From Ruegeria sp. A3M17 (lineage in GTDB: Bacteria > Pseudomonadota > Alphaproteobacteria > Rhodobacterales > Rhodobacteraceae): DNA of 64,000 bases. Position 1 is the stretch's first letter; the number at the start of each line of letters is the position of its first letter. Below are positions 2,992-52,489 of the stretch, one piece after another. The DNA lies in contig NZ_QOCF01000028.1 of NCBI RefSeq assembly GCF_003318255.1, positions 1-64,000 of the forward strand. Direction: 5' to 3'. A program made the position numbers and the translations under genes. A model generated the notes under the pieces. It was not told the DNA's origin and ran no database searches. It saw nothing but the letters and a program-made list of their open reading frames with translations.

Positions 2992-3111
2992 GCTGCACCC
3001 CCCGCCGAAATACGCGGCAGAACTGACATCATTGTACACAAATATGCGAAAAAACGCTAGCAAATATGCCGAAATGTCTGCGCAAATAAGCCAGCCGAAG
3101 CGGAATGTGCA

Positions 3112-35096: not shown

Positions 35097-35114
35097 TGGC
35101 GGAGACGAAGGGAT
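35097..35114. repeat. left attachment site (attL), 18-bp direct repeat of tRNA-Ser 3' end
   Basis: TGGCGGAGACGAAGGGAT, identical to 52472-52489. It is the displaced 3' end of the target tRNA gene (acceptor stem and part of the T arm), 82 bp after nosX. The match stops at the next base. Confidence 0.93.
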
Positions 35115-36118: not shown

Positions 36119-37641
36119 TCGTCGAAGGGCTCCTCATCGCGATTGATAATCATCGCTCTGAGAATTCCTCTTGCCTCATTACCTAGACTATCACCTAGCT
36201 CAGCGACAATTTCCTCATAGCTACCGCCGCGGCCAACCAAATCGGATAGTACGGTATGGAAACCAGATCGGGTGACCTCAAGGCCAAAGACATCCCGTGT
36301 CAACACACCGACGTTTTCACCAAAAGTTTCTGAATCGGGACGTTTTTTCTCGGAAGCAAGCTTGCTGCGAAAAACCTTCCAAACGCATGATCGGGGAATT
36401 TCCTGCAATACAACCGGCGAATGGGTCGCAATAATCGCAACCGCATTTCGCATATGAAGTAGCTGGCTGAGGCTTCGCATTAAGGCAGAGAGCAAAGGCG
36501 GATGGAGATGGCTTTCCGGTTCGTCAAAGAGCACAAGTGTCTTCTCTTCCACTTTGGCAACCAAGAGGGTCATCGTAAGGAGTACAACTGCGTGACCAGA
36601 GCTCATCTTCCCGATCAAGAAAAGCGCCCGGTTCCTCAGTTCATCACCCCGCAAGTCAGTCAGCGAAGATAGTTGCATATCGGCAAAATTCTCGTCGCTT
36701 TGGAGAGTTTCAATGGCCTGAACCCAGCGGTTTCTTCTCAAGTCATCGTCTAAGCAAAATGCAAGGCCTTCAGCGAATTCTTCGAAAATGGCATCCTTTG
36801 ACTTAATGATAGCGCCATCGTCGCCCGCGTAGTCCGTCAGCCCAATGTAGGTATATGGGGTGTGGTCTCCGTCTTCCGGCAGATCAAACGGGTCGAACGC
36901 GCTGAATGCGACTGACACCAGGCTTGGGAAATAGCCGTTATCTTTTGATAAGTTGCCGAACGGACCTGATGTGTAAAAATGTGCATCAGTTTCCACTTCG
37001 TCAGCAATCGCCTTGACCATAGAGTTCAACAGGGTCGTCTTACCGACGCCGTTTCGACCTATCACCGCATGCATGTTTGTACTGGGCGTAGAACTTGCCC
37101 TAACGCTGAACTTGAGGTCGAAGCCCGCGAACTTTTCCGCAGGAGGAAGGCAGAAGCCAAACTTGAAATCTGTTAGGAGCACATCGCCCCTCAGCACACT
37201 GGCGAACTGGTCCCGTACTTTACTTATTGAGATCGAACGTAGATGAGAGATGTCAAAAACACTTTCGTTTTTCGCAGCTTCCAACAGTGTCTGATCCCAA
37301 ACAACATCTCGAATACCGGTCAAGAAGCCGGCCCTCCAATTTTCAGAAAAGTTGGAGAAAAGGTTCTTGTAGTAGTCGACATCCATGCCAAGTGAGAAAA
37401 AGGTCTCATCGAGAGAGTCAAAACTGTCACCTAGTTTTTCGTAAGTCGCTACTTCCTTGGTCTGACCAAAGAAGCCAATCCTCACACTCGATAGCTCGTG
37501 TTTAACACCGTTTTCATCGAAGGCGAAAACACCAAAGCTTGTGACAAACGAGTAATCGTTCCAATGATCAATTATGAGGTAAACTTCGTTACATCCTGAT
37601 GATGGCGGCCCACTTCGTGCCGGGAGAACGTGAAATCTCAT
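36115..37641 (-). CDS. AAA/ABC-type ATPase of a two-gene defence module (Septu PtuA-like)
   Basis: A 508-residue ATPase with Walker A GRNGVGKT at 195-202, a reduced ABC-like signature MSSGH (346-350), Walker B TLVLFDEPES at 368-377 and a switch region IATHSPVVLQ. These features fit the SMC/ABC-like ATPases used with nucleases in defence (PtuA, OLD, AbiEii-like). The N-terminal extension of about 190 residues (with DHWNDYSFVTSF and DVDYYKNLFSNF) is unlike the classical Septu ATPase as I know it, so it may represent a separate subtype. It begins 33 bp after hsdM in the same direction, so it is probably part of the restriction operon. Confidence 0.8.
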   Translation of the reverse strand: MRFHVLPARSGPPSSGCNEVYLIIDHWNDYSFVTSFGVFAFDENGVKHELSSVRIGFFGQTKEVATYEKLGDSFDSLDETFFSLGMDVDYYKNLFSNFSENWRAGFLTGIRDVVWDQTLLEAAKNESVFDISHLRSISISKVRDQFASVLRGDVLLTDFKFGFCLPPAEKFAGFDLKFSVRASSTPSTNMHAVIGRNGVGKTTLLNSMVKAIADEVETDAHFYTSGPFGNLSKDNGYFPSLVSVAFSAFDPFDLPEDGDHTPYTYIGLTDYAGDDGAIIKSKDAIFEEFAEGLAFCLDDDLRRNRWVQAIETLQSDENFADMQLSSLTDLRGDELRNRALFLIGKMSSGHAVVLLTMTLLVAKVEEKTLVLFDEPESHLHPPLLSALMRSLSQLLHMRNAVAIIATHSPVVLQEIPRSCVWKVFRSKLASEKKRPDSETFGENVGVLTRDVFGLEVTRSGFHTVLSDLVGRGGSYEEIVAELGDSLGNEARGILRAMIINRDEEPFDE

Positions 37642-37674
37642 GTCTCACATTCCAGTGCGGTATTGAAACCCATT

Positions 37675-39162
37675 TCAAACGTCCTCCATCAGTTCCGCTC
37701 GAACGTTTCGGAAGCTCTCCAGCCCTGCCTGCAACTCATCAATAATCTCTTCCGCAAGGACATCCGGCGCGGGCAAGTTGTCCATGTCCGTCAAGCTCTT
37801 GTCCTTAAGCCAGAACACATCGAGGCTGGCCTTGTCTCTGTCGAGAAGCTCTTTCAGCGGGTACTTCCGCCAGCGCCCGTCTGGCGTTTCCTTAGACCAA
37901 GATTCGGCCCGTCCGTGCATCTCGCCAGCTTTGAAACACGCCACGAAGTCCGACAGATGGGCATAGGTCATCGGCTTTTTCTTCAACGTGTGATGCACGT
38001 TCGTGCGGTAGTCGTAGAACCAGACCTCTTTTGTCTGGGCATCCGGGCTCGCCGGTTTGTTGTCGAAGAACAGGACATTCGCCTTCACGCCTTGCGCATA
38101 AAAGATACCTGTTGGCAGGCGTAAAATGGTGTGCAGATCGGTGGATTGCAGCAACTTGCGCCGCACCGTCTCACCCGCGCCGCCCTCGAACAGCACATTG
38201 TCTGGCACCACCACAGCTGCGCGACCGGTACTCTTGAGCATCGACCGTATGTGTTGGACAAAGTTCAGCTGCTTGTTCGATGTAGTCGCCCAGAAATCTT
38301 GACGATTGTAGGTCAGATCATCCGTTTCCTGCTCGCCCTCGTCATTGGTGAAGCTCATTGAGCTTTTCTTGCCAAACGGCGGGTTCGCTAGGACGTAGTC
38401 AAAGGTCTGAGTTGAAGCGGTCACCAACGCATCGTTGGGCGATACAAGGCTGTCACCATCAATCTCGCCGATATTGTGCAGCATCATGTTCATCAGGCAC
38501 ATCCGGCGCGTATTGGCGACGATCTCATTCCCGAAAAAAGTATCGTGTTTAAGGAACGCCTTCTGATCTCGGTCCAGAGCACCGCGTTTTGGGTCATTAA
38601 GATAGTCGTATGCAGCAAGAAAAAAGCCACCGGTTCCGCAAGCTGGATCCGCGATTGTCTTGCCCGGTTCCGGCGACAGGCATTCCACCATTGCTGAAAT
38701 CAGGGAACGAGGCGTAAAGTACTGGCCTGCACCAGATTTCGTATCTTCGGCGTTCTTCTCCAAAAGCCCTTCGTACACATCGCCCTTAACGTCTGCGCCC
38801 AGCATCACCCAATCGACACCATCCACCATGTCGATTAACCGATAGAGCTTCGCCGGATCCTGAATCTTGTTCTGCGCCTTCGTGAAAATCTGCCCCAACA
38901 TCCCCGACTTAGTGCCAAGCGACCGAAGTAGATCGACGTAGTGAACCTCAAGCTCTGCGCCGCGCTTTGCCTTAAGCGAAGCCCAGTCATATCCTTCCGG
39001 TACTCCGACGCTCCGACTATGCGGCGGCTTGGCGTACTCGTCCGCCATCTTAAGGAAAATCAGATAAGTCAGCTGCTCAAGATAATCACCATATCCGACG
39101 CCGTCATCGCGTAGGGTTGTGCAGAAGCTCCACACTTTTGAAACAATGGGGGCCGTATTCAT
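37675..39162 (-). CDS. hsdM: type I restriction-modification DNA methyltransferase subunit
   Basis: A 495-residue N6-adenine methyltransferase with the N-terminal HsdM helical domain, SAM motif I IADPACGTGGFFLAAYDYL (about 160) and catalytic motif IV NPPFGKKSSM. It modifies the host recognition sites and forms the M2S core with HsdS. It overlaps the GIY-YIG gene by four bases and is followed by the ATPase gene. The order here is R-S-GIY-M, with M last. Confidence 0.95.
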   Translation of the reverse strand: MNTAPIVSKVWSFCTTLRDDGVGYGDYLEQLTYLIFLKMADEYAKPPHSRSVGVPEGYDWASLKAKRGAELEVHYVDLLRSLGTKSGMLGQIFTKAQNKIQDPAKLYRLIDMVDGVDWVMLGADVKGDVYEGLLEKNAEDTKSGAGQYFTPRSLISAMVECLSPEPGKTIADPACGTGGFFLAAYDYLNDPKRGALDRDQKAFLKHDTFFGNEIVANTRRMCLMNMMLHNIGEIDGDSLVSPNDALVTASTQTFDYVLANPPFGKKSSMSFTNDEGEQETDDLTYNRQDFWATTSNKQLNFVQHIRSMLKSTGRAAVVVPDNVLFEGGAGETVRRKLLQSTDLHTILRLPTGIFYAQGVKANVLFFDNKPASPDAQTKEVWFYDYRTNVHHTLKKKPMTYAHLSDFVACFKAGEMHGRAESWSKETPDGRWRKYPLKELLDRDKASLDVFWLKDKSLTDMDNLPAPDVLAEEIIDELQAGLESFRNVRAELMEDV

Positions 39163-40076
39163 ATCGCTGCCTCTTCTTCGGTCTGCGAAGCTTTCTCAAC
39201 CTCGTAGTCACCGTATTTTTTCGTCTGATCACTCTCTAGCAGCCAGGCACTGGGGCCTGCTGCGGGTCGTCCTGTCACAACAGACGCAGCTGCGCTTACG
39301 CTGTTGAAGGCATAGCTTTTCAGGAATTGCCGCGCCCCGTCTTTTTCTCCAATCACCCCTTGGGCGACGAGCGATTCATAGAGCCGGCCATAAGTGGAAT
39401 CCTTCGTGGTCGAACCAACCCATTTGCTGCGGGCACCGGATCCTTCTTCAACAACAAAGTCACCGCCTTCTTGGCGCGCTCGGGCTGTCACACCTTTGGA
39501 TGAAAGGACAAAGTAGACTGTTTCAGGCTCGTCGTCAGCCTTGGCCACCGGCACCTTCGGCTTGGTCTGCTCTGTCAGAAAATCAAACCGCAATGCCGGA
39601 AGTACGAGGCGCAAATTCCGCAGAAAGTCCTCCATATGAGCAAGTGCCGCTTTGCTGAGCGGGCTTTCAGTAGGAGCCTTATTGTTTGCCAGAGCGACCT
39701 TTGAGATCCGCGACGCCAGCCCATAGATCCGGCTTTCAAGATAACGGGCATGCGCTTTGTTGAGTGGCTCGCCTTGTGCCGTCACAAAGATTGCCCGCTC
39801 CCACCAGTCTTTGGACGCATCCTTGATGTGCTGATTGATCCTCGCGCGGATCTCGTCCGTCTCTCCCACGTAGAGCGTCAGGCCGTTTTCGGTTTCGCCG
39901 ACCAGAAAGTAGATGCCTGGCTGAGACGCTTCCGGTTCCTTAAGTGCATCGAAAACCTGTGTTCGGTTTGTGACCAAGACATGCCCTGTCCACTGAAATG
40001 GGATTGTTGCCGTCGTCATCCCATCGGGATCGCCATCATGGAAAAAGAGTTCGATTGAGCGTCCTTGCGGCGTCAT
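39159..40076 (-). CDS. GIY-YIG nuclease-like protein with DUF4357 domain, inside the hsd operon
   Basis: A 305-residue protein. GIY (54-56) and YVG (69-71) motifs are followed by ETDEIRARI, with a downstream Glu in ARYLESRIYG, which are the elements of a GIY-YIG nuclease. A C-terminal DUF4357 domain (about 225-285, with SYAFNSVSAAASVVTGRPA) follows. It overlaps both hsdS and hsdM by four bases, so it is translated with them. It may cut DNA under the control of the restriction complex or act as an independent second barrier. Its function is not established. Confidence 0.82.
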   Translation of the reverse strand: MTPQGRSIELFFHDGDPDGMTTATIPFQWTGHVLVTNRTQVFDALKEPEASQPGIYFLVGETENGLTLYVGETDEIRARINQHIKDASKDWWERAIFVTAQGEPLNKAHARYLESRIYGLASRISKVALANNKAPTESPLSKAALAHMEDFLRNLRLVLPALRFDFLTEQTKPKVPVAKADDEPETVYFVLSSKGVTARARQEGGDFVVEEGSGARSKWVGSTTKDSTYGRLYESLVAQGVIGEKDGARQFLKSYAFNSVSAAASVVTGRPAAGPSAWLLESDQTKKYGDYEVEKASQTEEEAAI

Positions 40077-41617
40077 GCGGGCGTCTTTCGTTTTCGCTTA
40101 GGCTTCGGGGCTGCATCCCGTTCGGATTTAATGCGAGCGAGGAGGGCTGAGGCGGGTTCATCTGTTGGGTCTTGGGGGACGAGTTTGCCCTCAAAGGCGC
40201 GTTTGAGTATCGATTGGCGTAACGCGCGGGAGCGGGCGAGTTGATTGTCGATGTCGGCCTCAAGTGCGTCGAGGAAAGAGAGCTTAGCTTCGAGACGGTT
40301 GACGATTTCCGCTTGTTCGGCGGGCGAACAGAGTGGAATAATAAGCTCTTCCAAAGTTGTTAAGTTGATATTTTTTTGAGCCGTTGCTGGCGCGTAGGCC
40401 TCGACCCGTTGCCGAACTGCCTGAATGAAAAGCTCAACGTAGTACGGTGAAACGAGGTCTTCAAAAGAGGAAAAACCAACAACGCTGTCAGGAAAACAAG
40501 CATCGATGCCAAGAAAGGCTGTCTCAGCGATATTCGCTGCAATAGTGATGCAAAGCGTCCCCTTTGGCCAAAGCTTGCTTTGCGCAAGGCCCGTCTCTGA
40601 ATAGGTCTGCTTATATTCACGGATGACGCGTGAAGCTGCTTTGACCTCTCCAGTTTGAATGAACGGGTACTTCCCGCCGAACAAGGCTTTGTCATTGCGT
40701 GGCCTGTGCTTGGACTTTCCTCGACCAAGATCGCCAAGGTTTGATAGATTGGTGTACGCCCATTTCTCAGGGATCAATGGGAGTTCTTCGTCATCCTCTT
40801 CATCGAGCGCGAGGAGGGCTTTCTGACGTTTCGGTTTCGCGGGCTTCTTCGCTTCCTCACCGTCCACGCGCCATTTGACCAAAGCATCCTGCCAGTCGTC
40901 GAGGGATTGTTTGTAGCGGGCGTCGCGTTCTTCCTGGATGCGGGCCAAAAGGGTTTCGGGGTCTTCGAGTTTGTCGGGGTTGGCGGCGCGCCAGTCGGCG
41001 GTCAGGTGGCCCTCGAAGGCGTGTTTGAGCAGGGATTGCCGATACAGGCCCGCCTTGTCCCGCGCCGCCCGCAAACTCTCCTCCCCCTTGTCCAGAAAGT
41101 CAAAAAGCTGCTCGATCTTCTCCACGATGCGACGTTGTTCGTTGGTGGGAGGGAGTAAGAAATGAAAGTTTGAGAGATAAGGTTCAGGGACGCGCTTTTG
41201 GCCTACAGCGCCAGTCATATTGTGTTCCGCATCGTAGCGGAAACCAAGTGACGAAACGCGATAGTACACAAACTTTGGCACCACCCCTTCCGGGCTTCGC
41301 AAGACGTGAAATTCAGTGGAGCCAAAGCCTAAACTGCATGGAAGCTCTGGCACCACAGCCATTTTGCCATTTTCCATACACGGCGTAATTTTGGCGAACA
41401 GGACGTCGTTGGCTTCAAAGGGCGTATAGCCCGTTTTGACTTTGGCGAAGCGACGAGTCTCCGAAACATCAATTGCTCCGGTTTCCGCTTCTACTGCGGG
41501 CATCGGAACAAAGTTCACGTCAGCATCCAGTGGTATGGATTTCTTGTCGGCTACTGGATTAATCTCGACGATTTGGGAAAGCGGCGCATCAGCCCACCCA
41601 CTCGGCAACTCACTCAT
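40073..41617 (-). CDS. hsdS: type I restriction-modification specificity subunit
   Basis: A 514-residue HsdS with two target-recognition domains: the first in residues 1-165, the second in about 270-430. Conserved coiled-coil spacers (EQRRIVEKIEQLFDFLDKGE and EQAEIVNRLEAKLSFLDALE) link them. A basic, low-complexity stretch lies at about 235-275. The recognition sequence cannot be read from the protein. It overlaps hsdR and the GIY-YIG gene by four bases. Confidence 0.94.
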   Translation of the reverse strand: MSELPSGWADAPLSQIVEINPVADKKSIPLDADVNFVPMPAVEAETGAIDVSETRRFAKVKTGYTPFEANDVLFAKITPCMENGKMAVVPELPCSLGFGSTEFHVLRSPEGVVPKFVYYRVSSLGFRYDAEHNMTGAVGQKRVPEPYLSNFHFLLPPTNEQRRIVEKIEQLFDFLDKGEESLRAARDKAGLYRQSLLKHAFEGHLTADWRAANPDKLEDPETLLARIQEERDARYKQSLDDWQDALVKWRVDGEEAKKPAKPKRQKALLALDEEDDEELPLIPEKWAYTNLSNLGDLGRGKSKHRPRNDKALFGGKYPFIQTGEVKAASRVIREYKQTYSETGLAQSKLWPKGTLCITIAANIAETAFLGIDACFPDSVVGFSSFEDLVSPYYVELFIQAVRQRVEAYAPATAQKNINLTTLEELIIPLCSPAEQAEIVNRLEAKLSFLDALEADIDNQLARSRALRQSILKRAFEGKLVPQDPTDEPASALLARIKSERDAAPKPKRKRKTPA

Positions 41618-44376
41618 CCCGCCACAGCCTCATTCATCTCAGCCATCAGTGGCTCCATTTCTTCACCGAACAGTTGATACATCCGGCCTAGCCCGCCTTG
41701 CCCGTCGAAAGGGGCAAAGTCCAGATCATCTCGTTCGATATGGAAGCTGCTGGACAAATGATCACGGATCATCCGCAGCCAAGTCATTTGCTCCTCGTCA
41801 AACTTGGCCCCCTTGCCAGCGTGGCGCTTCAGAACCCAGTTCTGGAAATTCTTGCGAACGCGATCCGCATGAGGCGTCAGCTTGTCATCCAGCCCAACAA
41901 CACGGCGGATCAGAGCAACCAGGGCTTCCAGCTCTTTCTCGGGTGCGGCTCCTTGCACCACGTCCAGATGCGCGTAGGCCCGCCACACATTGAGTGGGGC
42001 CAAGCGCGGGGCATCGGCCCGCAATGCCTCCAATACAACGCGGATCATGGCGAATGTGATTTCTGATCGGCGTGCTGGCTGGTTAAAGAAAATTGTCAGG
42101 GCCTCAAGCCGATCGCGGTTATCATTGAGGTAGGCCTCAAAATCCTGACTGAGCGCTTTCGCGTTCTCATCCGTGTCGCCCGCCCATTCCGCCTTGGTCA
42201 CATGGTCAAGGTTTTCATGGTCTACGGTCTGTTCCAGATCGCGTCGAATGGTTTCGAGCGTATTGATGAGTGTGCCGTTCAACATCTTGGCTGCTTCACC
42301 CACACGCTTGGCCCGCGCGGTGTCCTGAGCGGCCTCGTCAGGCTCATCCTGGCCCGTTGCCGCCTTGGCATCAGCCAAGACATCATCCGCGTCGATGGCA
42401 TCAAACAGGCCCTTAATCACTGAGCGCAAGGAACGACCCGCGGCAGCCTCTACCTGCGTGCGTTGCTGATCATCAATTTGCCTATCGATCCGCGAAAGGC
42501 GGCCAGCAAGGGACGTGACTGATGCTTCATCCCGTGCCGCGCCCATCATGACACCCATAGCGAGGTCTTTGAGAGGAACGGAAGGCTTAGTGTCCAATGG
42601 CTGGCTTGCCGTTTTCACCGACTTCGTCACGCCGATCGCATCGACGATCACGTAGTGACTTTTTGCGCGGGCTGATGGCGTGACCTTTTTTAGATCGTCA
42701 GCTTTCACCACACGGGTGCCGCGTCCTTTCATTTGTTCAAAGTAGTTTTTCGATTTCACGTCCCGCATGAACAAGAGACATTCGAGCGGCTTCACGTCCG
42801 TACCGGTTGCGATCATGTCGACGGTCACAGCGATACGCGGATAGTAATCGTTGCGGAAGGCCGCGAGAACGGATTTCGGATCGCCGTCAGTCTTGCTTGT
42901 GATCTTTTTGCAGAACTCATTGCCTTCGCCAAACTCCTGGCGGACGGTTTGAATGATATCATCCGCGTGGCTATCGGTTTTAGCAAAAATAAGGGTCTTC
43001 GGAACTTCGTTCCGACCAGGAAAGATGTTGGGCAGATTGTCTTTGAAAGCCCTGATGACTGTCCGGATTTGGTCCGCATTCACGACTGAGCGGTCGAGCT
43101 GCTTGGCCGAATATGCTTCATCCTCGTCTTGTTGTTCCCACCGTTTCTTTCTGGACAGCTTCTCGCGGCGCTCGACTTGCTGCCTCGCAACCAGTTTTGC
43201 TCCCTTCTGGGTAACTTCGGTCTCGATCACGTAGATTTCGTTGCCGACGTTCACGCCATCGGCAACGGCATCTTCGTGTGTATATTCGCTCACAACATTC
43301 TTCTGGAAAAACCCGAAGGTGCGATCATCGGGCGTGGCCGTGAGACCAATCAGGAAAGCATCAAAATACTCAATGACCTGGCGCCATAAGTTATAGATCG
43401 AGCGGTGTGCTTCATCGATGACGATGAAGTCGAAATACTCAGGCGGGATCTTATCGCTATAAACCACAGGAAGTGGCTCACGTTTCCGCTTCCATTGTTC
43501 AGCTGGGTTTTCGTCTTCAGCGCCTTCTGGCAGCTCCTCATCCTTTAGGATCGCATACATACGTTGAATAGTTGAGATGCAAACCTGGCTATCGCCAGCA
43601 ACATGTTGCGACTTGAGACGCTGCACGTTGTAAAGCTCGGTGAACTTTCTAGTATCGTCACTCGGGACGAAAGACATGAACTCTTGCTCAGCTTGCTCGC
43701 CTAGGTTTTTCGTATCGACCAGGAACAGCACTCGTTTGGCATCCGCGTGCTTTAGCAAACGGTAGATTTCCGTAATCGCGGTAAAAGTTTTGCCTGACCC
43801 AGTGGCCATCTGGATCAGCGCTCGTGGCCGATTGTCTTTCAAAGACTCTTCGAGCTTATTAATGGCGTTGATCTGGCAGTCTCGCAGCCCTTCCTCATTG
43901 AGCTTAGGCAAGTCTCTCAGCGCTGACCTGAGCGACTGCGGCTGGTTGATCCAACCGGCCAACGTTTCAGGACGGTGAAACGAAAAAACTTCACGTGACC
44001 TTGGCTTAGGGTCCCGACCATCGGTGAACCGAGTAATCGCACCAGTGCTCTCGTAGATGAACGGCAACGGATCCGGATTGTTGATCCACTTTAGTTGAGC
44101 TGTGGCGTATCCGCCGGATTGCTCTTCGACCGTTGTAAGCTTCTGCCCCCACTCTTCAGGCTTTGCTTCCAAAACCCCAACTGCAGTACCGTTAACAAAC
44201 AGGACGTAGTCAGCGGGCCCGATGTCAGTTTGGTACTCGCGAACAGCAACACCCATTGCTGCCGTAGGGTTCAGTTCGGCCTTGTTTTGAATCACCCACC
44301 CGGATGACCGAAGCAGCTCATCGATCCTGTCACGAGCAATTTGCTCAGGATTTTGGTTAATTTCGTTCAAGTTCAT
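41614..44376 (-). CDS. hsdR: type I restriction endonuclease subunit
   Basis: A protein of about 920 residues: an N-terminal PD-(D/E)XK nuclease (Asp in IGPADYVLF, then GVLEAK), a superfamily 2 motor (Walker A MATGSGKT, DEAH box VIDEAHRS, motif VI-like QMKGRGTR) and a C-terminal helical domain for binding the M2S core. It translocates and cuts unmodified foreign DNA. The start at 44376 (MNLNEINQ) is the first with a family-like sequence; the frame upstream to 44523 is poor. It is the first gene of the defence operon. Confidence 0.93.
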   Translation of the reverse strand: MNLNEINQNPEQIARDRIDELLRSSGWVIQNKAELNPTAAMGVAVREYQTDIGPADYVLFVNGTAVGVLEAKPEEWGQKLTTVEEQSGGYATAQLKWINNPDPLPFIYESTGAITRFTDGRDPKPRSREVFSFHRPETLAGWINQPQSLRSALRDLPKLNEEGLRDCQINAINKLEESLKDNRPRALIQMATGSGKTFTAITEIYRLLKHADAKRVLFLVDTKNLGEQAEQEFMSFVPSDDTRKFTELYNVQRLKSQHVAGDSQVCISTIQRMYAILKDEELPEGAEDENPAEQWKRKREPLPVVYSDKIPPEYFDFIVIDEAHRSIYNLWRQVIEYFDAFLIGLTATPDDRTFGFFQKNVVSEYTHEDAVADGVNVGNEIYVIETEVTQKGAKLVARQQVERREKLSRKKRWEQQDEDEAYSAKQLDRSVVNADQIRTVIRAFKDNLPNIFPGRNEVPKTLIFAKTDSHADDIIQTVRQEFGEGNEFCKKITSKTDGDPKSVLAAFRNDYYPRIAVTVDMIATGTDVKPLECLLFMRDVKSKNYFEQMKGRGTRVVKADDLKKVTPSARAKSHYVIVDAIGVTKSVKTASQPLDTKPSVPLKDLAMGVMMGAARDEASVTSLAGRLSRIDRQIDDQQRTQVEAAAGRSLRSVIKGLFDAIDADDVLADAKAATGQDEPDEAAQDTARAKRVGEAAKMLNGTLINTLETIRRDLEQTVDHENLDHVTKAEWAGDTDENAKALSQDFEAYLNDNRDRLEALTIFFNQPARRSEITFAMIRVVLEALRADAPRLAPLNVWRAYAHLDVVQGAAPEKELEALVALIRRVVGLDDKLTPHADRVRKNFQNWVLKRHAGKGAKFDEEQMTWLRMIRDHLSSSFHIERDDLDFAPFDGQGGLGRMYQLFGEEMEPLMAEMNEAVAG

Positions 44377-44581
44377 TTGCCCTAAATTACGCCGCAACTT
44401 TAGAGTGCAAGCAAAGGGAATAAAACTGAAAAAGGTCAGATGAACTTGAATGGAAGTGGAACGCCAAACCCTAGGGATGTCTACAATCTCAACTCGTGGG
44501 CAAAGCCGCCACACCGAGACCACTATCGCGTTAGAAACTTGGCCTTAGCGGCTTGCTGTCAGCATTCATGTGCGGCTGAAA

Positions 44582-45824: not shown

Positions 45825-46853
45825 TTAGTTCCGGAGTCGATCGGCCCGTTCTTTAATCCGCAGCAGCTTAGCGCCTGTTCCTGTGCTTTGCGGATCTGAT
45901 GTTCGCGGCGTCGCATCACTGGTAGGTGAACTCCCTCGCTGCATATTTCGTTGGATAACATCTGAGTTTGGCCGAATACCGCTTTGTGGCGGTCGCGTCA
46001 TACGTTGCCCCATGCCTGCCGTAAACGACCCGGCGATACCGGCGTTAATGTCACCCGAAAGGGTTCGAACAATCGTCGGGATAAACCAGATCATCGCCAG
46101 CGACAGTGAAATCAGCGCAAGAAAAGGAATGGCTGCACCGATGTTGGTTGTATTGCCAGCCCCACCCAACGCGCTCTGCATCACGCGCATAAGGCCGAAT
46201 ATCACCGAAAAAACACCGGCTATAACAACGGGATAGAACGACCAACTGACGAGCGCCGCCAACCAGCGCTGGAAGTAGTCGTGAGTAGTTCTGAACAGTG
46301 ACATCATTATCATCGCTGGGGCGATGCCGATCAGCAATGTCACCACCATTTTGGCCAGCACGAGCACGAGCGCCGCCGCGCCACCAAGAACTGAAAGCAG
46401 TACAGTAAGAACCACGCTCAAAACTGCTCCAGTCATCCAATTTAGGTTCGACCCGATTTCATTGGCATAGTCGGCAAGATCATCAATCATCTGATCGAAA
46501 CGATCGGCGAAATACCCAGCACCTGAGCCACTATCGCCGGTTATCGACCCGATGAGCATGCCAGCGACGTTATCAAGCCCATCAAAGATTTGGCCACTGA
46601 CATAGTTGAAATTCACCCAATTGAAGGCAAAAGCGTTGATCAGCGCAATCTTGAACAGAAGTGGATAGACTTCGCTGGCGACCATCGGCCTGATCTGCAG
46701 AGCCAAATTGATGAACAACATAATCATGGCGAACGTGGCGGCGATGACGATTGCCGTTCCGAGGCCTCCTGCTACAGCTGCAAACTGAGAGGCAGCTACT
46801 GTTTCGAGGCCTTGGTCGGCTGCATCTACAATGAAACTTACAATCCCCATCAC
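45825..46853 (-). CDS. VirB6/TrbL-like type IV secretion membrane protein
   Basis: A 342-residue polytopic protein with about six hydrophobic segments, a central GGAAALVLVLAKMVVTLLIG block and a disordered Ser/Thr/Pro-rich tail (about 280-342). This is the profile of VirB6, the inner-membrane channel component of type IV secretion systems. Its start overlaps the stop of the preceding exported-protein gene (ATGA). No other VirB/Tra core gene is present in the window. It may serve to join or alter a helper element's secretion channel. Confidence 0.78.
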   Translation of the reverse strand: MMGIVSFIVDAADQGLETVAASQFAAVAGGLGTAIVIAATFAMIMLFINLALQIRPMVASEVYPLLFKIALINAFAFNWVNFNYVSGQIFDGLDNVAGMLIGSITGDSGSGAGYFADRFDQMIDDLADYANEIGSNLNWMTGAVLSVVLTVLLSVLGGAAALVLVLAKMVVTLLIGIAPAMIMMSLFRTTHDYFQRWLAALVSWSFYPVVIAGVFSVIFGLMRVMQSALGGAGNTTNIGAAIPFLALISLSLAMIWFIPTIVRTLSGDINAGIAGSFTAGMGQRMTRPPQSGIRPNSDVIQRNMQRGSSPTSDATPRTSDPQSTGTGAKLLRIKERADRLRN

Positions 46854-47257
46854 TCAATCCCCCCGCAAAGATTTTGCACAGCATCGCGAAGACCTGAGAT
46901 TACCGGAAAATAGTCGATATCCACCCATTCGTTATAGGTGCTGGATTCCCCCGCAGCGAACCCCAGAGATTGATAATCATCCTCGATGACAGACCAATCC
47001 GGTCGCAAGGTTGCGCAATCGCAGCTCTGATCTTTCAACGACGTGCCATAGCGATGGATATCATAGAGTTTGTCAGCGGCAATTGAACGCCATGCATCTC
47101 GGAATGTGGTAAACGTCAGATGTTCCGGCCGCTGCAAGATCTGACAACCGAAGCGATCAACAGTAAGGTCCTCTTGATTGACCTGGGGCTGCGGGACTTC
47201 AGCAAAGGCGGTCGATGCCGCACCAACAAAACCAATCAGAAAAATTTTCAAAATCAT
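46850..47257 (-). CDS. small exported protein coupled to the VirB6-like gene
   Basis: A 135-residue protein with a signal peptide (ILKIFLIGFVGAASTAFA) and several cysteines, which matches nothing I recognise. The start at 47257 is preceded by GCAGGAGTAGCTAT, a clear ribosome site. The reading frame stays open upstream through the heptanucleotide array to 47476, which would add 73 residues with a QETGNRK repeat before the signal peptide. I consider this unlikely. Position before virB6 suggests a periplasmic secretion-channel partner (VirB5- or VirB7-like role), by context only. Confidence 0.6.
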   Translation of the reverse strand: MILKIFLIGFVGAASTAFAEVPQPQVNQEDLTVDRFGCQILQRPEHLTFTTFRDAWRSIAADKLYDIHRYGTSLKDQSCDCATLRPDWSVIEDDYQSLGFAAGESSTYNEWVDIDYFPVISGLRDAVQNLCGGIE

Positions 47258-47307: not shown

Positions 47308-47384
47308 TTTCCTGTTTCCTGTTTCCTGTTTCCTGTTTCCTGTTTCCTGTTTCCTGTTTCCTGTTGCCTGTTTCCTGTTGCCTG
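47308..47384. repeat. heptanucleotide tandem repeat (TTTCCTG)8 plus three variant units
   Basis: Eight perfect TTTCCTG units are followed by TTGCCTG, TTTCCTG, TTGCCTG, 77 bp in all, with degenerate GTTCCCTG copies continuing to about 47440. The array lies 51 bp before the start codon of the exported-protein/virB6 unit and 60 bp after the relaxase stop codon. Confidence 0.95.
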
Positions 47385-47444
47385 TTGAAGGTGCCGTGTT
47401 CTTTGTTCCCTGCACCATGTCGCGTGTTCCCTGTTCCTTGCTGA

Positions 47445-48989
47445 TCAGTGGCGAAGTCCATGAGTTTCATCGCCATTTTGGTAGCTCAACGTGTCGTAAG
47501 TTGTTTCTGGGCCCTCTGTACGTGCTCCATGCTGTCTTTCAGTTTCGGCGACGTCTGCTCCGTGCCTGAGGCTTCCTGCATCCAACCGTTTAAGGCTTCG
47601 ACCAATGAGATCTGTGATCTGAGCAACGCGATCACGGAGTTGCGCAAACAATCCACTTCCTCTCCGAGATCCTTCCCTAAGGTGACCAATTCCCTCGCTG
47701 ATGCCTCGGAGGCTTCCGTCAACCGCTCGACGTAGCTCAGCAATTCGCGTTCTAGCGGTGTCAGACCATCCATTGTTCAGTCCTTGCTGATCATCAGACA
47801 ATTCACGGTTTGACCTGCGAGCGTACATCTGGTCAGCACCGCATTGTCGTTTAAGGGGATCAAATAGATCGCCTCTGTTCGTTCGATTTTCCTGACACCC
47901 ATCGACGCCATCGATGGCGTCAACCAGGTCAACACCGACCACGTGGCCGTCGACGAACTGATCATCAGGCAACAGGCCACCAACACCGGCCAGATCATCG
48001 CCCTCGCTTCCGAGTGTGCTTTTTTCGCGTTCTGCCTCAGAAGGTGCTTCCTCACCCGCAGAAGATACCCTTCCGTATCTGTCTTGATTATAGCCAGCGC
48101 GCTTTCGGCAGTGGCTTTCAAATCGCTCCTGAAGCTCTTCAATTGAGAATCTATCAAGGCGGCGTTCTCTGTTCTGATCCGCTCCATATCTTCGTTCAGT
48201 TTCTCGCTCAGACGTTGTTTCGGCACGCCAGTCTTCATGAAAAATCTCTCCTTTCAGCCGAAACCGCTCTTCGGTGTCGGGGTCTTTGACGGTCAGATAG
48301 TTTTTTCCCGTACGCGGCACCTCGAAGCCCGCATCTGTCAGAACGGCAATCATCTCCGCTCGATCGTTGATCAGGCCCATAGAAATCTGGTCGCTAATCC
48401 AGATATGGAGCCCGTCGCGACCGGCGGCGCGGTCCGGGGCCTCCGACACCGACTTGACCTCGGCCGCTCGCTCCACATCCATGGGATCGGCCCAGCCGTG
48501 GGCCTTGTTCATCAGGTCGCGCAGACTGTCAAAGGCACGCTCATAGCCGGGCGGAGCGATGTTGAGACTGCGCCCGCTGTGCAACTCCATACGCGGTGTG
48601 CAGAAATGCAGCTCAACACGATCTTCGTGAGTGTGTCGCACCCAAAGGCAGGCGTAACGATCGACATCAAGGCTGGCGAAAGCGATCTCCTCGAAACGAT
48701 TGATCACCTCCTGCTGCTGTTCTTCGGTCGGGGCGTCTTCGCGAGCGAAGCTTACAACGCCGGCGCGGTAGGTCCATTTGTGCGGGCAGGCACCGATTAG
48801 GTCGATCATGCCCTGGGGATCGCCGCGAACGATTTCTGGCAAGGGCTCGCGGGTCACGGACATGGGCCGCCCCGAGGCATCGCGGACCAGGTCGCGGTTG
48901 TCGTCATAGGCAAGCACCGTGCGGGCGGTCAAATACTGGACAGGACCCACGCCTCTGCCTTTGCCGTTGGGGAAAAATTTGATCAGCAT
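47445..48989 (-). CDS. MbeA/MobA-type relaxase (MOBP, ColE1-like)
   Basis: A 514-residue protein. The N-terminal 260 residues form a relaxase domain: a candidate catalytic Tyr in GPVQYLTA (Tyr19) and the metal-site region WVRHTHEDRVELHF, typical of the MobA/MbeA group of mobilisable plasmids. It nicks the transfer origin and pilots the strand. Beyond residue about 300 the composition becomes odd (Gly/Asp/Val runs), because two other genes are encoded there in another frame. The start overlaps the mobC stop codon (TGATG). Confidence 0.88.
   Translation of the reverse strand: MLIKFFPNGKGRGVGPVQYLTARTVLAYDDNRDLVRDASGRPMSVTREPLPEIVRGDPQGMIDLIGACPHKWTYRAGVVSFAREDAPTEEQQQEVINRFEEIAFASLDVDRYACLWVRHTHEDRVELHFCTPRMELHSGRSLNIAPPGYERAFDSLRDLMNKAHGWADPMDVERAAEVKSVSEAPDRAAGRDGLHIWISDQISMGLINDRAEMIAVLTDAGFEVPRTGKNYLTVKDPDTEERFRLKGEIFHEDWRAETTSERETERRYGADQNRERRLDRFSIEELQERFESHCRKRAGYNQDRYGRVSSAGEEAPSEAEREKSTLGSEGDDLAGVGGLLPDDQFVDGHVVGVDLVDAIDGVDGCQENRTNRGDLFDPLKRQCGADQMYARRSNRELSDDQQGLNNGWSDTARTRIAELRRAVDGSLRGISEGIGHLREGSRRGSGLFAQLRDRVAQITDLIGRSLKRLDAGSLRHGADVAETERQHGARTEGPETTYDTLSYQNGDETHGLRH
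47486..47773 (-). CDS. MbeD/MobD-like mobilisation protein, nested in the relaxase gene
   Basis: A 95-residue helical protein lying wholly inside the relaxase gene, +1 frame on the same strand. The start MDGLTPLERELLSYVERL and the following coiled-coil match the MbeD/MobD family of small mobilisation proteins. It begins 3 bp after the mbeB-like gene, with AAGGA as ribosome site. MbeD of ColE1 is linked to entry exclusion and mobilisation. The identical gene order in ColE1 supports this call. Confidence 0.72.
   Translation of the reverse strand: MDGLTPLERELLSYVERLTEASEASARELVTLGKDLGEEVDCLRNSVIALLRSQISLVEALNGWMQEASGTEQTSPKLKDSMEHVQRAQKQLTTR
47777..48238 (-). CDS. MbeB-like mobilisation protein with membrane helix, nested in the relaxase gene
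   Basis: A 153-residue protein encoded wholly within the relaxase gene in the +1 frame. An N-terminal helical, coiled-coil half (RIRTENAALIDSQLKSFRSD) is followed by a membrane segment (about 82-103) and a short C-terminal domain. MbeB of ColE1 has the same plan and helps target the relaxosome to the membrane. A near-ideal ribosome site, AAAGGAGAG at 48246-48254, lies 8 bp before the ATG, which is strong evidence that this nested frame is translated. Confidence 0.75.
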   Translation of the reverse strand: MKTGVPKQRLSEKLNEDMERIRTENAALIDSQLKSFRSDLKATAESALAIIKTDTEGYLLRVRKHLLRQNAKKAHSEARAMIWPVLVACCLMISSSTATWSVLTWLTPSMASMGVRKIERTEAIYLIPLNDNAVLTRCTLAGQTVNCLMISKD

Positions 48990-49453
48990 CAGGACGGTCT
49001 CCTGTGCTGAGCAACAATTTCCGCCAACCGCCGCTCGATGCCCACCAAGGCCGCTGCCACACGCAGGGCATCAACCTCTCTGGCTGAGCCCGCGCGGGCT
49101 GCGGTATTAAGCCAACGCGAAATCTGGTTGAGGTTCCCGCCGTAGCGGGACACAGCCAGAATAAGCGCCGGATCGACATGGGGCGCAGGTTTGCGCCGCT
49201 TCTGTGCAACGCCGGTGGCAAGCTGACGAAGCATGGCAGACATCGACAGCCCGCGATCCGCCGCCGCCTGTCTGATCAGCGCCTTTTCATCGGAGGAGCA
49301 ATAAAAGAACACCGCTTCTTGCTTCTCTGAGGAGACCGCGCCCAGCGTGGTCTGGTTGGGGTTCGAAGGGGAGGCTCGCCGCCCCTCGCAAGGTCCCGGT
49401 TCGCAGGTCGCAGACCTAGAATTGGGTCGCCTTGCTCTTTGCTCACGCGACAT
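48989..49453 (-). CDS. MobC/MbeC-like relaxosome accessory protein
   Basis: A 154-residue protein. A low-complexity basic N-terminus (about 1-45) precedes a MobC-like domain: FFYCSSDEKALIRQAAADRG (a ribbon-helix-helix-like start) and the family block SRYGGNLNQISRWLN. MobC proteins bind the transfer origin and help the relaxase open it. The ATG lies inside the end of the HTH gene upstream, and the stop codon overlaps the relaxase start. Confidence 0.82.
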   Translation of the reverse strand: MSREQRARRPNSRSATCEPGPCEGRRASPSNPNQTTLGAVSSEKQEAVFFYCSSDEKALIRQAAADRGLSMSAMLRQLATGVAQKRRKPAPHVDPALILAVSRYGGNLNQISRWLNTAARAGSAREVDALRVAAALVGIERRLAEIVAQHRRPS

Positions 49454-50195
49454 CACTTTGCCTCCGCTCTGCAGCGTGGATGTCGACTAGACTCTCGACT
49501 ATCTCAATCTGTTCCCTCAGCAGCTCGCTATCTTTTGGTGCCGGACCAAGTGCGGGCAACATATAGCCTCGCCGCCCTTCTTCGCAGCGCACCTCTGGCA
49601 AGCAGCGACTGAGCGCGCGGATGCCGTGGCGGCGAAGGCAATCATCCCAGTCTCTTTCAAGCCGCCCTCCGCCACCGGGGACAAAGACTAAGTATGGACC
49701 GTTCTGCCTCGCTTTGGGCAAATCCTGAGCGCAAGTGCTCCCAAGTTCTCTTTTTAGTTCTTGTTCTCTATTCGGGGGGCGATCCTGTCCCCCTTCACTG
49801 GACGAAACTGTCCTGCTTCGCAGACGGTTTTGCCCCCCTTTAGTACGGTTAAGCAGTACAATTTTGTCCCCTTCTTTGCGGCGACTTGTAGCTCTCATGA
49901 TTGCGGCTTCTGTAGGACGGTAGCGCGATGAGTTTCCTTTGTTGGTCCCGCGTACCACGGTCATATAGCCCGCCTCTTCCAAGCCGTTTACGGCCCGTTT
50001 TACAGACTTCGCATGTTTGCCGATGGCAGCACCGATAGTCTCAAAAGAAGGGTGACTTTCACCAGTCTTATGATCCGCGTGGGCCAGTGAAAGATAGAGC
50101 GCAACACGCAGAGCATTGTCGTTTAGCTGATGATCAGAGACCATCTCCAGAAGGTACTGCAACTTTATTTTGCAGAAGGGCAACGGCTCAGACAT
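49443..50195 (-). CDS. helix-turn-helix protein, possibly replication- or island-maintenance related
   Basis: A 250-residue protein with an N-terminal winged HTH_36-type domain (HPSFETIGAAIGKHAKSVKRAV) such as occurs in plasmid replication initiators and phage replication proteins. A basic linker with low complexity (about 105-160) precedes a C-terminal region without recognisable motifs. Its location between an AlpA-like gene and mobC suggests control of excision, replication or transfer. No origin-like iteron array is visible nearby. Confidence 0.65.
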   Translation of the reverse strand: MSEPLPFCKIKLQYLLEMVSDHQLNDNALRVALYLSLAHADHKTGESHPSFETIGAAIGKHAKSVKRAVNGLEEAGYMTVVRGTNKGNSSRYRPTEAAIMRATSRRKEGDKIVLLNRTKGGQNRLRSRTVSSSEGGQDRPPNREQELKRELGSTCAQDLPKARQNGPYLVFVPGGGGRLERDWDDCLRRHGIRALSRCLPEVRCEEGRRGYMLPALGPAPKDSELLREQIEIVESLVDIHAAERRQSDVA

Positions 50196-50400
50196 GAGAC
50201 GTAGTCGTCGTGATCCGGTTGCGGTTGATCCATTCGTTTAGATCAGCACCGTGATACTTTACCCTGCGCCCAAATTTCAGAAAGCTAGGCCCAACTCTTC
50301 GATGCCGCCATTGAGCCCGTTTTGCTTTTGGCGCGATAAGGTCCAGTTCGGTATCGGCATCGTCATAGAGCCTCTCGCTTTCAAAAACTTCATGTGGCAT
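50188..50400 (-). CDS. AlpA-like/MerR-type small DNA-binding protein (excisionase candidate)
   Basis: A 70-residue basic protein. Its C-terminus, VGPSFLKFGRRVKYHGADLNEWI, is the typical HTH_17/AlpA ending (recognition of a Lys-rich wing, then DLxxWL). Small proteins of this type beside P4-like integrases usually act as excisionases or regulators of integrase. The ribosome site is GAGGACCGATAA. It overlaps the following gene by eight bases. Confidence 0.75.
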   Translation of the reverse strand: MPHEVFESERLYDDADTELDLIAPKAKRAQWRHRRVGPSFLKFGRRVKYHGADLNEWINRNRITTTTSHV

Positions 50401-50484: not shown

Positions 50485-51153
50485 CTAGCAGAACCTCAGC
50501 TCAATCCATGGCTCAAGGTTAGGTTTACGCGTCTTCGCTTCGGATATGAGCTTTCTCGAAAGCTCGTTTTCGATGGCAGGAAGATCCGAGGCTAGTGGTG
50601 CTTCTTCATCATTTTGGATCGCTAGTTGTCTGAGGTAAATCATCATCACGTGCGGCAAAACACATTGATATTGCGACCATTTTCGCTCCAATGTACGGAC
50701 GCTCACATCGCTTAAGGATTTTGGCCATTTCTTTGTGTGATCAGGGTCGTCACTGCGGTGCAGAAACGACCCATAAGCTGCCTGTTCGGCGAGCGCCGCA
50801 GATTTTGTTCTGCCATCTTTCCAAATAAGTGAGACGGCTCTTCCCAAGGGACCGACTGCCTCAGAGAAAACGTCTTCGACACGCTCCATTACTTCATTTG
50901 CATAAAGTCGCGGTCGGTCGAATTGCACTACGTTTGTTAGCGCCGCAGCCCTATCCGACGTCGACAGAACGTGATGGTGTGACCTCAGCCAGTCAAAGTA
51001 CAACTGTCCCAATAGACCGTTATATAGGTCATAGAATTTTTTCCCTGACCCAACCGATATCACAAGCGCCTCAATCGCCAGCCAAGATGCCACCTCTTCA
51101 TTTACGAAAGATAGGTTCTTGGTCTTAGCCACGTATACTTTTGCTGCCTTCAT
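50485..51153 (-). CDS. unknown protein translationally coupled to the integrase
   Basis: A protein of about 222 residues, starting at the ATG that overlaps the integrase stop codon (51150-51153). It appears mainly alpha-helical, with no signal peptide, no membrane segment and no nuclease or ATPase motif that I can see. Its coupling to the integrase suggests either a role in recombination control or cargo read from the integrase promoter. Confidence 0.6.
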   Translation of the reverse strand: MKAAKVYVAKTKNLSFVNEEVASWLAIEALVISVGSGKKFYDLYNGLLGQLYFDWLRSHHHVLSTSDRAAALTNVVQFDRPRLYANEVMERVEDVFSEAVGPLGRAVSLIWKDGRTKSAALAEQAAYGSFLHRSDDPDHTKKWPKSLSDVSVRTLERKWSQYQCVLPHVMMIYLRQLAIQNDEEAPLASDLPAIENELSRKLISEAKTRKPNLEPWIELRFC

Positions 51154-52325
51154 TGCGCACCAGAAACAAACAGATTCCAAGCAGACATCAGTTTTCTTCT
51201 ATGCTGGATTAGGTCCGAGCGAGCGTATGCGCGCTCGACCTCTGAACCTATCTGGTGCGCCAAGCTCATTTCAGCTAGTTCCCGACTGAATCCCGGCTGC
51301 TCTGCAGCCCAATCGCGAAAAGCCGATCGGAATCCGTGGACAGTGATGCCATCAACTTTCATGCGGCGAAGAAGCATTAGCATTGCCATGTTTGACATTG
51401 GTCGGTGACGCTTCTGACCTTCGAAAACCACCTCTGAGCGCAGAGCCTGAAGTGGCTCAATGATTGCCAACATCTGTTCTGTTAGAGGAATGCGGTGCTC
51501 CTTGTCCGCTTTCATTCGCTCGGCTGGGATCGTCCATAGAAGCTCCTCCAAGTCGAACTCCTCCCATCGAGCTTTCAGCACTTCACTTGTGCGGCTAGCG
51601 GTAAGGCAGGTGAACATCAGCGCTTTGGCCGCCATTGCATCTTTCTTTGCCACATCCGCATAGAATGCGGGCACGTCCTTCCAGTGCATCGCTTTGTGGT
51701 GTTGGACCTTCTGTTTGACCTGCGGCAACACCCGTGCATCACGGATCGTCGTCACCGGGTTCTCACCGTCTCGGAACCCCTTCGATTTTGCGACGTCCAA
51801 AACTGCTTTGATTCGCTGTGCAAGGCGCTTGGCTGTTTCGTGTTTATCTGTCCAAACCGGCAACAGGACTTGCAAAATTTCGGGCTGTCCAACCTCAGAG
51901 ACGGGCAAGCGACCAATCTTGGGAAACGCATATTCGGCCAGTGTATTGATCCATTGCTGGCCGTGCTTAGGGTTCTTCCAGGTCGGCAAGCGCTCGATGT
52001 GGACTTGCCGCGCGATTTCTTCAAAGCAAGGGATTTCCTGACGTCCGTTGTACCGCGGGTTGATGCCTTGCTTTGCTAGCCGACGATATTCCAATGCGCG
52101 GTCGCGCGCTTCATTCAACGTCACAACATCAGCGCCGCCCAGGCCGAAGTCTGTGCGCAATGGCTTGCCTTCGCGGTTGCGCTGCCCCTTCACTGTCACC
52201 CGAACAATCCAACGCCGAGCGCCAGATGGATCAACAACAAGGTACAACCCGCTTCCATCGCCGTGACGACCGGGACCCAAGGTCCGCACCAGATTCTTCG
52301 TCAGCTTTCCACTAAGAGCAGTCAT
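51150..52325 (-). CDS. P4-type tyrosine recombinase (island integrase)
   Basis: A protein of about 391 residues. It has an N-terminal DUF4102-like arm-binding domain (GDGSGLYLVVDPSGARRWI), a core-binding domain, and a catalytic domain with the tetrad: Arg in TASRTSEVLKARW, His-x-x-Arg in HGFRSAFRDWAAE, His in SLAHQIGSEV and Tyr in ERAYARSD. It integrates at the tRNA-Ser gene whose 3' end lies about 150 bp away. The ATG at 52325 was chosen over a GTG at 52337. The gene points into the island, away from the tRNA. Confidence 0.94.
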   Translation of the reverse strand: MTALSGKLTKNLVRTLGPGRHGDGSGLYLVVDPSGARRWIVRVTVKGQRNREGKPLRTDFGLGGADVVTLNEARDRALEYRRLAKQGINPRYNGRQEIPCFEEIARQVHIERLPTWKNPKHGQQWINTLAEYAFPKIGRLPVSEVGQPEILQVLLPVWTDKHETAKRLAQRIKAVLDVAKSKGFRDGENPVTTIRDARVLPQVKQKVQHHKAMHWKDVPAFYADVAKKDAMAAKALMFTCLTASRTSEVLKARWEEFDLEELLWTIPAERMKADKEHRIPLTEQMLAIIEPLQALRSEVVFEGQKRHRPMSNMAMLMLLRRMKVDGITVHGFRSAFRDWAAEQPGFSRELAEMSLAHQIGSEVERAYARSDLIQHRRKLMSAWNLFVSGAQ

Positions 52326-52471
52326 AAAGTACCACAATTCCTACCACGCAATGAACAGAAATCAGTCTAATCGAAGAAAGCCCAATAGCAACAACGAATG
52401 CAGATTAATCAACAAAAACAGCCCCATAAGGGGCTAAACAGCATCGAACACAAGTGAATGAAAATGGTGGG

Positions 52472-52489
52472 TGGCGGAGACGAAGGGAT
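52472..52489. repeat. right attachment site (attR), 18-bp direct repeat within tRNA-Ser
   Basis: The same 18 bp as at 35097-35114. It covers the encoded CCA end, the acceptor strand and the start of the T arm of tRNA-Ser, so integration leaves the tRNA gene intact. Confidence 0.93.

Follow-up and report, generated by a model that had tools for sequence, protein, structure and literature searches.

Does the arrangement known from ColE1, in which accessory mobilisation genes lie inside the relaxase gene in another frame, also occur in an alphaproteobacterial chromosome, and are the nested genes there real and related to those of ColE1? The question is raised by a relaxase locus of Ruegeria sp. 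A3M17 (Rhodobacteraceae; NCBI RefSeq assembly GCF_003318255.1), for which an initial annotation, made from the letters alone, had proposed two overprinted genes resembling mbeB and mbeD. We analysed the 64,000 nt that contain it, positions 1 to 64,000 of contig NZ_QOCF01000028.1 (hereafter the window), together with related loci. The two nested open reading frames (ORFs) are real, conserved genes, confirming the earlier observation. We consider it likely that they form part of a mobilisation module laid out as in ColE1, with mobC followed by a relaxase gene containing two accessory genes in the +1 frame, and that this module belongs to an integrative and mobilizable element (IME).

Layout of the mobilisation locus

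All genes of the module lie on the minus strand. The relaxase gene (47445..48989) encodes an MbeA-like MOBP protein of 514 amino acids (aa), recognised by PF03432 (E 6e-6), by the NCBIfam model relax_MbeA_E1 (E 3.7e-38 over residues 1-330, with 132 bits against a curated cut-off of 500) and by its motif residues, namely Tyr19 and H119-E126-H128 of motif III; the C-terminal half overlaps the nested genes. Nested gene 1 (47777..48238, 153 aa) and nested gene 2 (47486..47773, 95 aa), MbeB-like and MbeD-like, respectively, by position, are both wholly contained in the relaxase gene in the +1 frame, starting at nucleotide offsets 751 and 1216, just as the initial annotation had placed them. The ATG of nested gene 1 is preceded by AAAGGAGAG (48246..48254), a ribosome-binding site that coincides with relaxase codons K246-G247-E248; this Shine-Dalgarno (SD) sequence had been noted correctly, but its spacing is 7 nt and not 8 bp. 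The AAGGA reported before nested gene 2 is also present, 7 nt upstream of the ATG. Just upstream of the relaxase gene lies a mobC/NikA-like ribbon-helix-helix accessory gene with a GTG start (48989..49456), whose MobC/MbeC-like product matched PF21983 (E 9e-11) and PF05713 (E 6e-5), both above the cut-off; its end shares one base with the relaxase start, the overlap that had been described.

Conservation of the nested genes and of the start signal

A +1 ATG ORF of at least 153 aa appeared in 292 of 5000 synonymous-codon shuffles of the window relaxase, and ORF length, which alone is not significant, was dropped as evidence for nested gene 1. Since length is only marginal in the shuffles, it is conservation that shows the nested ORFs to exceed chance. 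We searched related elements for homologues of both nested frames and found them. Among 31 loci chosen by relaxase similarity (the window included, from 47 match rows of a family search, the other 16 being mostly partial or lower-scoring), nested ORF 1 starts at the identical offset of 751 in all 31, with lengths of 142-157 aa, and nested ORF 2 was detected in 28; as to the other three, L019 meets a contig end, L014 is beyond the detection limit and L006 has no intact in-frame start. Loci L041-L120 were retrieved with nested protein 1 as the query, so that their having nested gene 1 is no evidence; the unbiased sets are those taken by relaxase match from the family and from the wider samples described below. 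After removal of duplicates from 113 Rhodobacterales-type loci, many of them found by that query, 98 distinct loci were left, and a frame-fixed count placed nested gene 2 in 95 of these, with an SD-like match in 86 of the 95.

The start signal of nested gene 1 is locked into conserved relaxase codons. Its ribosome-binding site and ATG sit within the conserved relaxase motif RLKGEIF[H][E/D], with the ATG spanning the codons of residues 251-252, and the choice of codons upstream counts as evidence. The codon for Gly247 is GGA in 94 and GGG in 4 of the 98 distinct loci, as compared with 30 GGA and 70 GGG (100 of 916 codons) at ten other conserved glycines. In addition, K246 is encoded by AAA in 93 of the 98 loci.

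Selection on the two reading frames

Outside the overlap (relaxase codons 1-250), the mean pairwise differences among homologues at codon positions 1, 2 and 3 were.16,.14 and.41, a pattern that reverses within the overlap. In the nested-1 region, variability was lowest (.26) at relaxase position 3, corresponding to nested position 2, and highest (.32) at relaxase position 1, corresponding to nested position 3; in the nested-2 region the values for relaxase positions 3 and 1, again the lowest and the highest, were.23 and.34. The oddity of the relaxase frame just at the overlap, remarked on at the outset, thus appears as poor conservation at that place.

Substitutions were mapped on a tree from relaxase codons 1-250 and their observed and expected numbers compared; the ratios are approximate because the reconstruction used parsimony with a fixed transition weight of 2. 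With the first letter for the relaxase and the second for the nested frame (S, silent; N, changing), the control region outside the overlap had 1149 SN substitutions vs 466 expected and 273 NS vs 493, whereas the nested-1 region had 307 SN vs 376 and 517 NS vs 342, and the nested-2 region 185 SN vs 225 and 315 NS vs 207. Changes silent in the relaxase and altering the nested protein therefore stood at 0.82 of expectation in both overlap regions and at 2.46 in the control, and those silent in the nested frame and altering the relaxase at 1.51 and 1.52, as against 0.55. Substitutions silent in both frames reached 2.29 (nested-1) and 1.75 (nested-2) of expectation, so that a weak constraint on the relaxase frame persists there. 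In the nested-1 region, 7 stop-gains vs 57 expected fell in the relaxase frame and 5 vs 45 in the nested frame, as compared with 58 vs 77 in the +1 frame of the control region, which is not in use. Of the distinct loci, 96 of 98 have the relaxase frame open across nested gene 1, and 91 of 95 across nested gene 2. The depletion of stop-gains and the open frames show that both frames are kept, the nested frame bearing more of the amino-acid constraint. Selection maintains both frames, and within the overlap it acts more strongly on the nested amino acids than on those of the relaxase; purifying selection on the relaxase frame only, which would have spoken against the nested genes, was looked for and not found.

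These data bear on the view that the nested ORFs are a by-product, never translated, of relaxase conservation and of a base composition that leaves the +1 frame open. An ORF of this length is indeed not rare in itself, as the shuffles show. However, the reversed substitution pattern, the shortage of nested-frame stop-gains set against the unused control frame, the SD codon choice at Gly247 and the annotation of both nested ORFs as genes in one plasmid all argue against a by-product, and we regard this explanation as extremely unlikely.

Natural stops in the relaxase frame, with nested gene 1 intact, occur at codon 243 in L018 and codon 304 in L021, and the L014 relaxase ends after 345 residues, nested gene 1 being intact there as well. 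Such cases, together with the weak constraint on the relaxase frame in the overlap, would favour a second alternative, that the frame beyond about residue 305 is not usefully translated, the functional relaxase being short and the overlap effectively belonging to the nested genes alone. This alternative concerns the tail only and can hold together with a module on the ColE1 plan. The open relaxase frame in nearly all loci and the scarcity of relaxase stop-gains speak against it, and the L018 stop, which precedes the overlap, would break the relaxase itself; we think a short relaxase quite improbable.

Likeness to the ColE1 module and to other mobilisation genes

The window and ColE1 (gene listing: mbeC, mbeB, mbeD) have in common the gene order, the +1 frame, an SD sequence in K-G codons and a second nested gene directly after the first; their relaxases are homologous, and mbeB starts at the homologous relaxase motif. 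They differ in that mbeB begins one codon nearer the RLKG motif than nested gene 1, that MbeB lacks the C-terminal Cys pair of nested protein 1, that ColE1 is a small plasmid with an H-E-N relaxase whereas the window has an H-E-H relaxase in a chromosomal tRNA-Ser island, and that the nested proteins of the window fall outside the MbeB_N and MbeD models. A +1 start right after RLKG/RLTG was found in six gammaproteobacterial plasmids (ColE1 and those of E. coli, Erwinia, Serratia, Aeromonas and Psychrobacter), in each of them one codon nearer the motif than in the window. In addition, a +1 start at the same motif is present in the phylum loci L136, L137, L141 and L152, with the spacing of the window in L141, and in G319, an alphaproteobacterial genome outside the family of the window. 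As mbeB lies in the same frame at the homologous motif, one codon earlier, the layout is probably homologous, and the claimed resemblance to ColE1, including a relaxase related to MbeA, is borne out to this extent. Judging from these features, the module probably works like that of ColE1 and is probably homologous to it.

Of 116 Rhodobacterales-type relaxase rows, which include duplicate loci, 114 have the catalytic Tyr at position 19 and two have a gap there; the third place of motif III is H in all 116, and the E is retained in 114, with G for E in two. In the ColE1-containing group, 9 of 16 rows have N at the third place, as do 5 of 5 f26 rows. The relaxase of the window clade, with H-E-H in motif III, is not a HEN relaxase; H-E-N is described as the mark of the ColE1 relaxase group (PMC12857230).

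Nesting of this kind has been described elsewhere. R1162, a MOBQ member, has the same nesting. Internally encoded MobB and MobD of ColE1-type plasmids have been described (PMC9282650), and in Aeromonas plasmids mobB overlaps mobA in another frame (PMC4655240). The same report, citing work on R1162, ascribes to MobB a C-terminal membrane domain, binding to MobA and raised transfer, and MobB as described there serves as the model for the mechanism proposed below for nested protein 1; the comparison with mobA-mobB plasmids of the R1162/RSF1010 type is by description (PMC4655240). A MOBP5 module with overlapping mob genes in Alphaproteobacteria is already in print: the Paracoccus plasmids pMARC2 and pAES4 share with the window an alphaproteobacterial host and overlapping mobA/mobB/mobC, but are plasmid-borne, and the accessible text of that report, the basis of this comparison by description, mentions neither mobD nor a selection analysis (PMC3832669). 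For nested genes in chromosomal Rhodobacterales relaxases, searches of open-licence PMC papers brought up no description; the words nested and overlap are absent from the available portion of a paper on the surface-ocean mobilome (PMC11104534), and that of PMC8683028 has nothing on overlap.

Predicted properties of the nested proteins

The AlphaFold model of nested protein 1 consists of a helix (residues 10-112) followed by four strands, with a mean predicted local distance difference test score (pLDDT) of 80.5 and a predicted template modelling score (pTM) of 0.33. The 19-residue hydropathy maximum exceeds 1.6 in 95 and 1.3 in all of 96 distinct homologues, and in all 96 the positive charge is greater before than after the hydrophobic stretch (an N-in pattern) and two Cys occur in the last 25 residues. 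The hydrophobic stretch, charge pattern and Cys pair together predict a cytoplasmic helix and a small outer domain, the latter perhaps disulphide-bonded. For the MbeB_N-domain protein of L136, a single-sequence model gave a helix at residues 3-117 and a C-terminal part too uncertain for comparison of folds. Nested protein 2 has the N-terminal motif LTxLERxLLxxVERL, to be set beside TxLExxLLxxLExL at the N-terminus for MbeD/MobD.

Profile comparisons gave weak similarities that varied with the set used; the scores listed here with a shuffle maximum exceed it. Nested protein 1 scored 43.2 (90%) against an MbeB-type profile with eight members (shuffle maximum 22.5) and 34.4 (66%) with nine members (shuffle maximum 17.4), and the f26 proteins scored 31.3 (47%) against nested protein 1, rising to 37.4 (78%) with the Serratia protein added. 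The profile sets excluded the duplicate f26 loci L135, L151 and L158, and the eight- and nine-member sets also L040, which was rejected as a nested gene, being a spurious +1 ORF in a broken Acinetobacter relaxase. Nested protein 2 matched MbeD over the first 17-19 columns, with scores of 20.9-23.6 vs shuffle maxima of 15.2-15.3.

Distribution and origin of the nested genes

A relaxase match (E 1e-20) was present in 42 of 295 genomes of the family, that of the window included. A second relaxase in the same genome, 50% identical and with its own nested pair (L002, contig C38, 311605-316059), lies on the same contig as the window, at 313 kb, and belongs to a clade in which no TrbL was seen. In two class samples (385 and 289 genomes), matches outside the family were confined to G319, with nested ORFs, and G556, without them. 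The spread of this architecture, initially suggested to be wide, is uneven between the family and the rest of the class as sampled. A phylum sample gave matches at E 1e-15 in 23 of 398 genomes, among which G205, G967 and G994, of the family of the window, have a distant relaxase without nested ORFs. A scan of named genomes with the nested protein returned 156 relatives, of which 80 were kept; most come from Rhodobacterales genera, a few from bins named less specifically, and one from a bin that bears the label Alteromonadaceae.

A +1 ATG ORF of at least 90 aa was found at the corresponding place in 140 of 155 relaxase-match loci, a number that includes duplicates, query-selected loci and the spurious L040. 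Among the 15 loci counted without the ORF, L018 does have nested ORF 1, with an interrupted relaxase frame, L142 has it in a shifted frame, L153 is a fragment and L157 repeats L125, which leaves eleven that lack it. As to plasmid annotation, a plasmid gene table, itself incomplete, has an entry for the relaxase alone in the Ruegeria conchae replicon L033 (12001-13563), and in the Neotabrizicola plasmid L034 (5250-6771) for the nested pair but not the relaxase. The relaxase frame is open in both.

Several results weigh against the reading as an IME module on the ColE1 plan. The nested products matched no Pfam family above the cut-off, the best being nested product 2 vs DUF7653 (23.3 bits, cut-off 27). 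MbeB_N (PF04837) was matched by 0 of 31 nested protein 1 sequences and MbeD_MobD (PF04899) by 0 of 28 nested protein 2 sequences, the positive control, ColE1 MbeB, giving E 3.6e-22 with MbeB_N. The hidden Markov model search proposed with the initial annotation therefore succeeded for MobC (PF05713 and PF21983) but not for the two nested products, whose likeness to MbeB and MbeD is upheld by position, frame, topology and weak profile similarity and not by the curated Pfam models; with the failure of the model match, it is on those four features that homology rests. For nested protein 1 the profile similarity to MbeB is weak and changes with the proteins included: among narrower sets, one of five members scored 26.9 (17%), and the Aeromonas protein gave 27.4 (22%). 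The match of nested protein 2 to MbeD is weak as well, spanning just 17-19 columns. A related relaxase without a nested ORF occurs in eleven distinct loci (L125, L138-L140, L144-L149 and L155). In a midpoint-rooted relaxase tree, three lineages that lack nested ORFs (L125/L157, L145/L146 and L148) stand as sister to the Rhodobacterales clade, with a support of 90, and two of the three belong to the same family as the window. Finally, CTGGCTTA, which we take to be the ColE1-type nic core, is absent from the plus strand of the window; in reverse complement it is found at 3087 and 37806, neither of them in the mobilisation region; an origin of transfer (oriT) was thus not located by way of CTGGCTTA in the window.

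The main rival to one ancient origin is an independent one, in which the nested genes are real but arose apart from mbeB and mbeD, by overprinting of the same permissive C-terminal part of the relaxase. The lack of matches to MbeB_N and MbeD_MobD, the weak profile similarity and the sister group without nested ORFs are what this alternative would lead one to expect, and elsewhere on the tree, at deep nodes of weak support, loci that have nested ORFs are mixed with loci that lack them. However, gammaproteobacterial plasmids, the f26 genome and the Rhodobacterales loci share the same frame and a start that agrees to within one codon relative to the RLKG motif, order and topology are the same, and the profile scores exceed all shuffles, so that we judge independent origins unlikely. 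With a sister group that lacks nested ORFs, a single common origin needs losses; one ancient origin with losses would fit the identical frame and the near-identical start point.

The host element

The module lies in an island of about 17.4 kb between two att repeats, which holds an integrase, helix-turn-helix (HTH) genes, the mobilisation module and a type I restriction system. The proximal repeat (52472..52489) is at the 3' end of tRNA-Ser(GCT) (52472-52561), and the distal one (35097..35114, 18 bp) is an exact copy of the 3' stretch of this tRNA gene; at the distal end the GC content of the kilobase drops from 0.59 to 0.48. Beside the tRNA gene is a tyrosine integrase gene (51150..52337, minus strand; PF22022, PF13356 and PF00589). 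The same tRNA adjoins the integrase in the relatives L041, L045 and L047, and in L043 and L051 neither the tRNA nor such an integrase was found in the stretch covered. Between integrase and mobC, also on the minus strand, are genes for an HTH_17 protein, perhaps an excisionase of the AlpA type (50188..50400; PF12728, E 7e-4, below the Pfam cut-off), and an HTH_36 protein (49443..50195; PF13730, E 4.5e-10). The cargo (35240..44523, minus strand) comprises HsdR, HsdS, HsdM, a GIY-YIG/DUF4357 protein, an AAA ATPase and a gene without a Pfam match. The genome has no match to PF03135, the single VirB4 family searched, which, together with the att repeats, the integrase and the relaxase, indicates that the element is most likely an IME needing a helper.

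A VirB6 pair downstream of the relaxase gene

Two further minus-strand genes follow the relaxase gene: one (46850..47248, the ORF being extendable to 47476) whose product, about 132 aa long, contains several Cys and has a signal-like N-terminus, and one for a TrbL/VirB6-like subunit of a type IV secretion system (T4SS; 45825..46853; PF04610, E 1.8e-28). By eye, tandem 7-bp units resembling TTTCCTG are seen at 47310-47390, after the relaxase gene ends and before the small protein probably starts; this array falls within the 5' extension of the small secreted protein ORF. A relaxase followed by the small signal-like protein and the TrbL/VirB6 gene was found in 12 distinct loci of the clade of the window; TrbL was seen in no other locus up to L158 within the flanks covered (many of only about 1.5 kb), and the sequence of the clade member L050 ends too early to show it.

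The TrbL/VirB6 protein of the window shares 42% identity with a protein of VirB6 type from Phaeobacter plasmids, and TrbL-like proteins occur in 216 plasmid records, among them 57 of Phaeobacter, 31 of Sulfitobacter and 19 of Paracoccus; 130 of the 216 are predicted to be conjugative. In the two plasmids inspected, both from roseobacters, a virB run closes with the TrbL gene, and just before that gene stands a homologue of the small protein, with 28% identity over 53 residues and a profile probability of 96%; both plasmids are typed as mobilizable yet carry virB4, virB9, virB10, a virB11-type ATPase and a coupling protein. SGI1 is reported to replace mating-pore subunits of IncC plasmids with its own copies and so to evade entry exclusion (PMC5389848). 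Like SGI1, the window has a mobilizable island with its own copy of helper T4SS subunits, but those of SGI1 are TraN, TraH and TraG (traN/traH/traG) of an F-type system (PMC5389848), whereas the window has VirB6/TrbL and the preceding gene. By analogy, the VirB6 pair suggests an SGI1-like swap of a subunit of the helper's channel.

Proposed function and implications

In the IME module on the ColE1 plan, the relaxase and MobC would nick at oriT, and nested protein 1, with its cytoplasmic helix, one membrane span and small outer domain with a Cys pair, would anchor the relaxosome at the inner membrane near the coupling protein of the helper, with nested protein 2 as a putative partner of the MbeD type. 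The secretion channel would be supplied by a helper plasmid, since no PF03135 VirB4 was found in the genome. The C-terminal half of the relaxase may be a weakly constrained tail, the main duty of which would be to stay open over the nested genes. The nested genes probably help DNA transfer.

A broader combination of these ideas is possible, although we hold it only tentatively and think it rather doubtful as a whole: overprinted membrane proteins would tie the relaxosome to the membrane, a VirB6 cassette would replace the VirB6 of the helper, and the nested start would have frozen a relaxase motif. The cassette, which pairs the signal-bearing Cys protein with VirB6 and has relatives at the distal end of virB operons in roseobacters, might favour the IME or evade entry exclusion, as does TraG of SGI1 in an unrelated type of T4SS, and the motif might have been fixed since before the HEN and H-E-H relaxases parted.

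For annotation, the finding exposes a gap, in that the relaxase alone or the nested genes alone are listed in a plasmid gene table, itself incomplete. The VirB6 pair may also allow the idea that an island remodels the channel of its helper to be tested in a system that is not of the F type. The loci also form a natural data set for two frames that share one DNA, with measurable selection on both and a start signal set in conserved codons. A well-known bacterial gene overlap is thus shown not to be a quirk of small plasmids, as the same layout is present in integrated elements across one large family.

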